From: Dehalobacterium formicoaceticum | GTDB lineage: Bacteria; Bacillota; Dehalobacteriia; Dehalobacteriales; Dehalobacteriaceae | Length of the DNA: 64,000 bases | Assembly: GCF_002224645.1 (NCBI RefSeq) | Contig: NZ_CP022121.1 | Span: forward strand, 2,672,501-2,736,500 | Reading direction: 5' to 3' | Part shown: one piece after another, positions 36,259 through 50,022 of the stretch | How positions within the stretch are numbered: the first letter of the stretch is position 1 | Layout: each line of letters begins with the position of its first letter | Notes under the pieces: model-generated | Told to the model about the DNA's origin: nothing | Seen by the model: the letters and a program-made list of their open reading frames with translations, nothing else | Databases searched by the model: none | Position numbers and translations under genes: made by a program

Positions 36259-37560
36259 TTGTCATCAAAATTTCGTAATCTGATGACCGTATTATTAGTT
36301 TTGTTCCTGGTTGGTTCCGCCGGTGCCATTTATTTGATCAGCACAGAGGGGAACCTTGAGCATTCCCAGATGGAACCGGGACAGGAGGATTGGATCAGAG
36401 GTAAAGACCGCATTAATATCTTGCTATTGGGCACTGATGAAGAATTTATGAACAAATCCCGCACTGATACGATCATTCTTGCCAGTTTGGATATGCAACA
36501 GCACCAAATCAGCTTACTGTCTATCCCCCGGGATACCCGAGTAAAAATTCCAGTATATGGAGATAATAGAATTAATACGGCAAATGTTTTTGGAGGTGTG
36601 GAATTAGTAAAAGAAAGTATTTCCCAGTTGATTAAGGTGCCTATTGATTATTATGTCTTGACAAATTTTAATGGATTTGTTGATATTGTTAATACCTTAG
36701 GGGGAGTAGAGCTTGATGTAGAACAAAACATGAAGTATCGTGTTTATGATGGCATGATTGATTTAGAAAAAGGGGTTCAGCGCTTGGATGGAGAAAAAGC
36801 TTTACAGTATGTGCGCTACAGACATGACAAGCTAGGCGACATTACACGCACACAAAGGCAGCAAAAGTTTTTGTCTGCTTTAGCCGCGGAAATGATGCAA
36901 AGTAAAAATATTGTGAAGCTGCCCGTGCTGATTCCCCAGATGAACGAAGCTATAGAAACTGATTTAACCATTGCCCAGATGATTGGCTTAGGTAAGGATT
37001 TCAGCGAATTTGCCTCCGGATCAATTGTTTCCCAAACCTTGCCAGGCAATTTTATGGACATTAACGGCGGAAGTTATTGGTATGTGGATGAATCCAAAGC
37101 GCAGCAGGTGGTATTAGAGGTTTTTGCAGGAAATTCCGGATCAGTAATTGATACCACATCACCTGTCCGCATCGCTGAAAAAGATAATTCGGCAGAGCAG
37201 AATACAGCTAAAGTACATCCGGTGGAAAAGCAATCAAACACCAAAAAAGCTGAAGACAAAAAAGAAGCCGGCAATAAAAAAGTAATGGATCGAATCAAAG
37301 AGAACAATAAGAAAGAGGAAGAGAAAAAGACAGTTCCGGTAAACCAGGAAGTCGTGATCGAAATCAATGAAGAAGAAAAATTGCCGGAGAAGATTCCTCC
37401 CAAAGGAAAAATTGAGGTTCTGCCCCCGGTTCCTGTGGAAGAGAATAAGAAGAGCGAGATTTTGGGCGAAGAGGTTGCTCCGGAAGCAGAGATTTTGGAC
37501 ACAGGAATTAATGATCAAAAGGCAGCTGATCCTTCGTTAGAAGTGACGCCGGAAATGTGA
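36259..37560 (+). CDS. LytR-CpsA-Psr (LCP) family protein with a long charged tail
   Basis: LCP proteins transfer undecaprenyl-linked polymers to peptidoglycan. One N-terminal membrane segment (~residues 8-28) precedes the LCP domain, with GTDE, SRTDTI, SIPRDTRV and LQYVRYRHD, including the conserved Arg and Asp residues. From about residue 310 the protein changes to a ~120-residue Lys/Glu/Pro-rich tail, which is absent from many homologues. TTG at 36259 is 7 nt after AGGTGA; GTG at 36250 lies inside that RBS. Confidence 0.88.
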   Translation: MSSKFRNLMTVLLVLFLVGSAGAIYLISTEGNLEHSQMEPGQEDWIRGKDRINILLLGTDEEFMNKSRTDTIILASLDMQQHQISLLSIPRDTRVKIPVYGDNRINTANVFGGVELVKESISQLIKVPIDYYVLTNFNGFVDIVNTLGGVELDVEQNMKYRVYDGMIDLEKGVQRLDGEKALQYVRYRHDKLGDITRTQRQQKFLSALAAEMMQSKNIVKLPVLIPQMNEAIETDLTIAQMIGLGKDFSEFASGSIVSQTLPGNFMDINGGSYWYVDESKAQQVVLEVFAGNSGSVIDTTSPVRIAEKDNSAEQNTAKVHPVEKQSNTKKAEDKKEAGNKKVMDRIKENNKKEEEKKTVPVNQEVVIEINEEEKLPEKIPPKGKIEVLPPVPVEENKKSEILGEEVAPEAEILDTGINDQKAADPSLEVTPEM

Positions 37561-37584: not shown

Positions 37585-37699
37585 AAGTGAACTCGTTCAG
37601 CTAAAGCTGAACATCGGGGCTTCAGATGGGGAATCTACCCACCTGAAGTGAAAATAGGAGCTCCCACTTATAGAAGTGGAAGTCTTGGAAATTGATAAA
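37585..37699 (+). repeat. Three-hairpin element A, TnpB/IS605 right-end-like (omega-RNA-like)
   Basis: Three stem-loops follow one another: GTTCAGC-TAAA-GCTGAAC (37595-37612), CTTCAG...CTGAAG (37620-37648) and CTCCCACTT-ATAG-AAGTGGaAG (37661-37682). It is nearly identical to the inverted copy at 46155-46270 (a few changes and one missing C). Such hairpin series form the right end and guide-RNA scaffold of TnpB-type IS605 elements. No tnpA or tnpB is nearby, so it looks like a solo remnant or a non-autonomous element. Confidence 0.7.
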
Positions 37700-37847: not shown

Positions 37848-38258
37848 ATGCTTTTTAGACAATGCGCCGGTGGCTTAGTCTTTTTTAACGACAAAGTTTT
37901 ATTGCTGCAAAACGAAAAAAATGAATGGGTATTTCCCAAAGGTGTCATCAGAAATTTAGGAAGCGCCAATGAGGTCGCTTTGCAGCGGGTTAAAGAAGAA
38001 GCAGGAATTGAAGCTGAAATTGTCAGTCCCATTGGGGAAACGAATTATGAGTTTTATTCCTGTACGAGACAAGAGCCTGTTTGTAATCAAATTACCTGGT
38101 TTTTAATGAAAAGCGATTCCGGAAAATACCAGATTAATAAAGAACTGAATTTTAAAAATGGCGGGTTTTTCAACATCATTGATGCCTTAAGCAAGGTCAC
38201 CTACAGTCAAGATAAAGCTTTGCTGAATATTGCTTATAAACAACATAAGGAGTTATAA
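37848..38258 (+). CDS. Nudix-fold protein with a degenerate Nudix box
   Basis: The 136-residue protein has a Nudix start (RQCAGGLVFFNDKVLLLQNEKNEWVFPKG). The Nudix box GVIRNLGSANEVALQRVKEEAGI keeps the two acidic residues of xEE and the following G. It has Gln-Arg where the family has Arg-Glu and Gly where the first Glu is expected. Metal binding may still be possible through EE. The substrate is unknown. The RBS AGTGGAGG precedes ATG. Confidence 0.8.
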   Translation: MLFRQCAGGLVFFNDKVLLLQNEKNEWVFPKGVIRNLGSANEVALQRVKEEAGIEAEIVSPIGETNYEFYSCTRQEPVCNQITWFLMKSDSGKYQINKELNFKNGGFFNIIDALSKVTYSQDKALLNIAYKQHKEL

Positions 38259-46154: not shown

Positions 46155-46270
46155 TTTATCAAATTCCAAGACTCCCACTTCTATAAGTGGGAGCTCCTAT
46201 TTTCACTTCAGGTGGGGTAGATTCCCCGTCTGAAGCCCCGATGTTCAGCTTTAGCTGAACGAGTTCACTT
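46155..46270 (-). repeat. Three-hairpin element B, inverted copy of 37585-37699
   Basis: On the minus strand it has the same three stem-loops as element A; here the third (46172-46193) and the first (46243-46260) are perfect. The copies lie 8.5 kb apart in opposite orientation. The element ends 13 bp before the first in-frame ATG of the spoVK frame (46283) and occupies the place of its leader or promoter. No transposase is nearby. Confidence 0.7.
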
Positions 46271-49876: not shown

Positions 49877-49902
49877 AAATAAGTAACTTAATAAAAAATG
49901 TT

Positions 49903-50022
49903 TTCTAGGGTTCCGCAACGTTTTGTTGGTCTGGTCCGAGAGAAAACTCACAGCTTAACTGTGTCACGGAAGGATAAAAGCCTGGGAGAAACTGTATAAC
50001 AGTTGTCTTCTGGGTTTTTTTT
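49903..50022 (+). promoter_or_regulatory. Guanidine-I (ykkC) riboswitch with terminator platform
   Basis: The conserved ykkC blocks are present in order: CTAGGGTTCCG (49905-), GGTCTGGTCCGAGAGAAAAC (~49928-), ACGG-AGGATAAAAG and CCTGGGAGA. The 3' part (49979-50022) forms a long hairpin around AACTGT-ATA-ACAGTT and ends in eight T. This is the usual off-state terminator. Guanidinium binding should allow read-through into the two SMR genes. Confidence 0.93.

Follow-up and report, generated by a model that had tools for sequence, protein, structure and literature searches.

Palindrome-associated transposable elements (PATEs) have been described in Haloquadratum walsbyi (PMC3119063), and one PATE-like case is reported from Halanaerobium (PMC7290912). 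As published, PATEs need not have an active autonomous parent (PMC3119063). The IS200/IS605 family is described as carrying hairpins at both ends (PMC7290912), and ISDra2 and IS608 are reported to insert 3' of TTGAT and 3' of TTAC, respectively, with no duplication (PMC8612924). In Borrelia, free-standing IS605 stem-loops are reported at the 3' ends of lipoprotein genes (PMC2775950). Our results suggest that two copies, A and B, of a repeat of Dehalobacterium formicoaceticum are probably complete, non-autonomous mobile elements of the IS200/IS605 type (single-strand, Y1-transposase) and of the PATE kind. A search of open PMC papers found related families only and no earlier report of this repeat of about 110 bp.

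Both copies lie in the window, the whole 64,000-nucleotide stretch of D. formicoaceticum DNA that was analyzed (Table 1). A preliminary description had noted three stem-loops at 37585-37699, and these are present, with coordinates right to within a base or two (37586-37699). It had also reported a near-identical copy on the other strand; this is copy B (46155-46269, minus relative to the orientation in which copy A had been read), which is 97 to 98% alike. The two copies are inverted with respect to each other, with adjoining arms of 62 and 56 nt that are 97% and 98% complementary. Copy A is flanked by a LytR-CpsA-Psr gene, which ends at 37560, and by a NUDIX gene, which starts at 37848; copy B lies between an IPP-transferase (miaA-like) gene and an AAA-ATPase gene, 14 bp upstream of the ATG of the latter. 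Elsewhere in the window, an Rfam search identified a Guanidine-I riboswitch (49894-49990, 85.3 bits) that precedes two small multidrug resistance genes (50056 and 50391), a normal arrangement for a guanidine exporter.

Table 1. Features of copies A and B, in positions of the window (the slash marks the point of insertion)
Feature	Position	Strand	Remark
Copy A, element body, 108 bp	37587-37694	-	Ends from the alignment of 36 own copies and from Desulfosporosinus empty sites
Copy A, true left end	37694	-	Read on the minus strand
Copy A, putative pre-existing target ATAAA (TTTAT on the minus strand)	37695-37699	-	In 5 of 29 comparisons, the empty site keeps ATNAA
Copy A, target's A on the far side of the insertion (A/ATNAA)	37586	.	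Empty sites read left flank-A-ATNAA-right flank
Copy A, hairpin 1, right-end hairpin on the minus strand	37595-37612	-	GTTCAGC-TTTA-GCTGAAC
Copy A, hairpin 2, middle	37619-37649	-	Compensatory changes between species
Copy A, hairpin 3, left-end hairpin on the minus strand	37661-37682	-	CTTCCACTT-CTAT-AAGTGGGAG
Copy A, element-end TGA	37588-37590	+	Serves an upstream gene as its stop codon in 14 of the 37 own copies
Copy B, element body, 109 bp, true left-to-right orientation	46160-46268	+	
Copy B, target TTTAT, at the left end	46155-46159	+	

The repeat is a dispersed, gene-less unit that is present in the D. formicoaceticum genome as at least 36 full-length copies and many fragments. A search of the whole 3.77-Mb genome gave at least 40 scored matches, two of them inside the window, and when 41 BLAST matches were extended, both ends were present in 36 and not in the other five. 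With up to three mismatches allowed, pattern searches matched the right-side motif 43 times and the left-side motif 61 times, compared with 1 and 6 matches for the reversed control; many of the additional matches are short fragments of the 5' end, copies with a deleted core or a head-to-head palindrome. One pair of head-to-head left ends forms a perfect 36-bp palindrome with the loop TAAA (L226, 661-696; genome positions 1873461-1873496) and another an imperfect 36-bp palindrome with the same loop (L163); such pairs resemble a REP. Alignment of the 36 copies revealed sharp ends on both sides, flanks without conservation and no target duplication, with a 3' border of A (33/36), T (35/36), N (A28, C4, T3 and G1), A (36/36) and A (34/36). 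The copies are up to 97% identical, lie beside unrelated genes and occur in both orientations relative to their neighbors.

Outside this genome, Desulfosporosinus carries the repeat in abundance, and other Bacillota have it sporadically. An exact 27-mer from one element end occurs in at least 120 stretches of GTDB genomes, mostly Desulfosporosinus, the matches listed also including Acididesulfobacillus, Desulfotruncus, Tepidibacillus, Halothermothrix and one Dethiobacter MAG. Scanning 198 relatives of the Desulfosporosinus genome G045 with a three-mismatch pattern detected the repeat in 38, with counts of up to 232 and no control matches. Among 60 relatives of D. formicoaceticum, G045 was the one genome with the repeat, and neither the plasmid and phage records searched nor a single pattern scan of viral contigs gave a match. 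An exact element end also occurs on a contig binned as Candidatus Hydrogenedentes (L209), which may be a binning error or a transfer. Many Desulfosporosinus copies have an extra hairpin-rich segment of at least two types within hairpin 2 (L210, 5041-5221; L108; L113; L199), reminiscent of the SMR elements nested in PATEs. In four cases of the first type no left end was scored, and the sequence there still reads as element.

The three stem-loops fold on either strand. Folded as single-stranded DNA, copy A has a z score of -3.4 on the plus strand and -5.9 on the minus strand, and none of 200 shuffles folded as well on either. On the strand opposite to that of the preliminary description, one hairpin lies about a dozen bases in from the TTNAT end and another lies eight bases short of the opposite end; inverted terminal repeats are absent. 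A consensus of 21 diverse copies has 29 pairs, 7 of them changed on both sides; because hairpin 1 is almost invariant, the covariation term is weak. A compensatory variant of hairpin 1 (CAAC..GTTG) occurs in G062. Changes within stems were of the A.C type in 30 cases and of the G.T type in 62, up to 36 of the latter at a single pair, which the reference copy itself has as G.T; with that pair set aside, the two types are about equally frequent on the plus strand. This near equality gives no sign of selection on a plus-strand RNA and would fit a structure that acts as DNA.

A BLAST of joined flanks from 120 genome loci found no empty site; a comparison between sister strains was needed. We compared the Desulfosporosinus genomes G045 and G077 (strain FKB), whose similarity is about 90% and which are collinear over the stretches retrieved. 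Four stretches held 79 end-like sites, and both flanks were found in the other strain for 49. The end was missing there at 30 of these, one of which was not an element copy, leaving 29 comparisons. In a scan of possible joins, A/ATNAA was among the best in 5 of the 29 (numbers 2, 6, 17, 18 and 20, with edit distances of 10, 7, 8, 5 and 2 of 44), and no other single junction came up repeatedly like this. In numbers 6, 18 and 20, the variable base N (G, C and C) was identical in the empty site, indicating that the pentamer belongs to the target. For the other 24, the other strain was rearranged, scarred or too divergent; element remnants (scars) were present at the site in numbers 7, 12 and 30, and number 24, fitted by eye over 15 nt, was not counted because the scan preferred another join. 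These comparisons place the element directly 5' of an apparently pre-existing ATNAA, with no duplication; on the other strand, insertion would be 3' of TTNAT (TTNAT/T). In principle, an empty site could also have arisen by excision instead of dating from before the insertion. AGTGAA, which is kept at several orthologous sites, was dropped as a candidate target as the precise sites showed ATNAA; the sites keeping AGTGA look like scars or mutated sites.

Since the target is at the 3' end in the orientation first used for copy A (ATNAA being TTNAT), the TCTTGGAA side corresponds to the left end when the opposite strand is read. Copy A had been described as a solo right end. Our results instead identify a whole element with both ends, and hence not a solo end, oriented the opposite way, with the target placed by the empty sites at the 37699 side. 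The data establish a unit of about 110 bp that is sharply bounded on both sides, has hairpins close to its termini, is present in dozens of copies and is inserted between A and ATNAA. An occupied/empty comparison of this kind can fix both the orientation and the target of a gene-less repeat.

Movement of such a unit would depend on a Y1 transposase that acts in trans, binds the two outer hairpins, releases the element as single-stranded DNA and inserts it 3' of TTNAT. We infer that the mobilizing enzyme is a Y1, with the REP-associated Y1 transposases as resident candidates. The absence of tnpA and tnpB from the window, as first reported, holds: six Y1 matches and one 70-amino-acid TnpB remnant lie elsewhere in the genome. 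The suggestion that the repeat spread without a transposase of its own is supported. All six matches are of RAYT-like size rather than of the short IS200 kind, and no Y1 genes other than those for RAYT-like enzymes were seen in this genome. Of the RAYT-like Y1 frames, two shorter ones are located 2.6 kb apart (2129408 and 2131999). Among 29 Desulfosporosinus genomes, the five without any Y1 match (three of them incomplete) have 0, 0, 0, 2 and 18 copies versus 1 to 232 in the 24 with a match (Mann-Whitney p = 0.006, phylogeny not corrected for), and the copy-rich genomes do not evidently share any one Y1 subfamily. Inspection of 46 Y1 loci, a TnpB locus and 20 further regions, mainly from Desulfosporosinus, revealed no Y1 or TnpB gene that has the ends of the element; a Y1/TnpB gene near an element in L354 is an incidental neighbor. 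A deleted IS605 with fused tnpA and tnpB remnants (L102, 1257-1881, reverse strand; G045:C6) lies directly against element pieces, its right end abutting an element end. This remnant, flanked by element pieces (L091/L102), was rejected as a parent, being an incidental neighbor whose own right end is different.

It is also possible, if rather unlikely, that the repeat is REP/BIME-like and spread by a RAYT, with the same chemistry on the REP branch. The one Y1 gene of D. formicoaceticum that was scanned scored 82.5 bits, above the NCBIfam REP_Tyr_transpos cut-off of 80, the others are not of the short IS200 kind, and palindromic left-end pairs exist. Both Y1 genes of strain FKB, in which there are 163 left-end sites, are closest to REP_Tyr_transpos and fall just under its cut-off. 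However, a unit of about 110 bp with three hairpins and no GTAG or CGTC tag is not what this reading predicts, and no intact repeat was found beside any RAYT examined; one left-end fragment lies 2 to 3 kb from a RAYT in L398. Moreover, a genome with five RAYT-size Y1 genes has no copies (G003), whereas one with 232 left-end sites has no RAYT-size Y1 among the matches listed (G075).

The preliminary description had favored an omega-RNA-like remnant of the right end of a TnpB element, that is, a guide-RNA scaffold with a guide after 37699. In another form of this view, the orientation would be reversed and the guide would come after GAGTTCAC. The hairpin-rich end does adjoin a TTNAT-type motif, which could be a TAM, and kinship with IS200/IS605-type ends is supported, given the hairpins near both ends, the lack of duplication and the fixed pentanucleotide. 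The TnpB part of the proposal, however, found no counterpart. No intact tnpB was found in the D. formicoaceticum genome or beside the copies examined; no intact TnpB gene was seen to be enclosed by, or directly to abut, any unit examined; and across 120 genome loci and 1.58 Mb of contigs, no TnpB-like frame comes closer to an element end than 2.7 kb. Rfam gave no credible match for the repeat, either at the gathering threshold or at E 10, and the balance of A.C and G.T changes likewise shows no sign of selection on a plus-strand RNA. The genes next to the copies are unrelated, and the genomes named here yielded no TnpB element that has these ends. We therefore regard a guide-RNA origin as very improbable, though a tnpB may act in trans in other genomes. 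The PATE-like reading corrects a tempting misreading of the repeat as an orphan guide RNA.

Equally improbable is the view that the repeat is not mobile and is a conserved RNA element, a terminator or mRNA stabilizer, at the 3' ends of many genes. Its enrichment at gene ends and its stable hairpins would be as expected, whereas the close identity of copies beside unrelated genes, their occurrence in both orientations and the clean empty sites in the sister strain would not. On the sequences compared, the empty sites appear largely to refute this view, and a secondary role of this kind is possible. A classical MITE of the DDE type was rejected since there are neither terminal inverted repeats nor target duplications.

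The mobile-element reading also bears on the position of many copies at gene ends. When genes were called as longest open frames, the upstream gene ended at bases 3 to 5 of the AGTGA of the element in 13 of 37 D. formicoaceticum copies versus 10 of 293 control AATNAA sites outside coding interiors (p = 1.4e-10). A count free of gene calls, requiring a frame open for 80 or more codons, found 14 of the 37 ending at the element TGA, 2 in the second frame, 0 in the third and no long frame at 21. In copy A itself the TGA is not used, the upstream gene having stopped already. Nine other genomes or MAGs gave 20 of 135 copies versus 49 of 2,585 controls, five copies inside called genes being left out. 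Ten of the 14 proteins were scanned, and 7 of these match a family profile to no more than three positions from its end, close to their own C terminus (YoeB, PBP2, a sigma-54 activator, GreA, Der, agmatinase and GlgA; the PBP2 and sigma-54 activator matches are below the cut-offs of their families); one of the others was uninformative and two matched nothing. In one Desulfosporosinus pair, the protein is two residues shorter with the element (VGELVE versus VGELVESK in the orthologue). Together, the profile matches and this small shortening indicate near-natural gene ends, not random truncations. This is a clear case of a mobile-element end that acts as a stop codon, in genes such as der, greA and glgA that appear full length.

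AATAAA often contains a TAA stop codon, and the element end reads AGTGA; a candidate explanation is that insertion at xAA-TAA would leave xAG-TGA, with the last residue the same and the stop new. Silent insertion of this type would explain why many copies lie exactly at gene ends. We tentatively raise the possibility that the AGTGA end and the A/ATNAA target are fitted to each other, making gene ends a safe harbor for a gene-less element that has spread across several Bacillota classes and supplies its hairpins as a ready-made 3' UTR. Gene-end copies may instead reflect only the survivorship of harmless insertions, with no adaptation of the end sequence. REP termini are reported often to provide a TAG stop codon to flanking genes (PMC8266576, PMC3733652), and so the stop-codon trick itself has a precedent.

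In summary, our analysis adds a high-copy, widely spread PATE-like family in Bacillota that is apparently mobilized in trans by a Y1 enzyme. As reported for PATEs (PMC3119063), the element has near-terminal palindromes, no inverted terminal repeats and no duplication, and is too short for a gene; its terminal oligonucleotide is really the target; the empty site has extra bases; cores are deleted between repeats; and insertions are strain specific, nearly all IS200-type genes of the PATE strains being described as pseudogenes. It differs from PATEs in its occurrence in Bacillota, in that no parental IS605 was found and in an end that supplies stop codons. Insertion 3' of a short target without duplication and hairpins at both ends are shared with ISDra2 and IS608 (PMC8612924, PMC7290912), whereas the element has no tnpA or tnpB and its target, TTNAT, leaves the third base free. 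High-copy hairpin repeats near gene ends, the supply of stop codons and a Y1-type enzyme are also described for REPs (PMC8266576, PMC3733652), but these are reported as single palindromes of 20 to 40 bp with a GTAG or CGTC tag, and ours is a 110-bp unit with two distinct ends. The Borrelia stem-loops likewise are IS605 end sequences without a transposase, one of them overlapping the last codons of a gene, but they are described as single ends on plasmids with a known parent element and with selection at the RNA level (PMC2775950).
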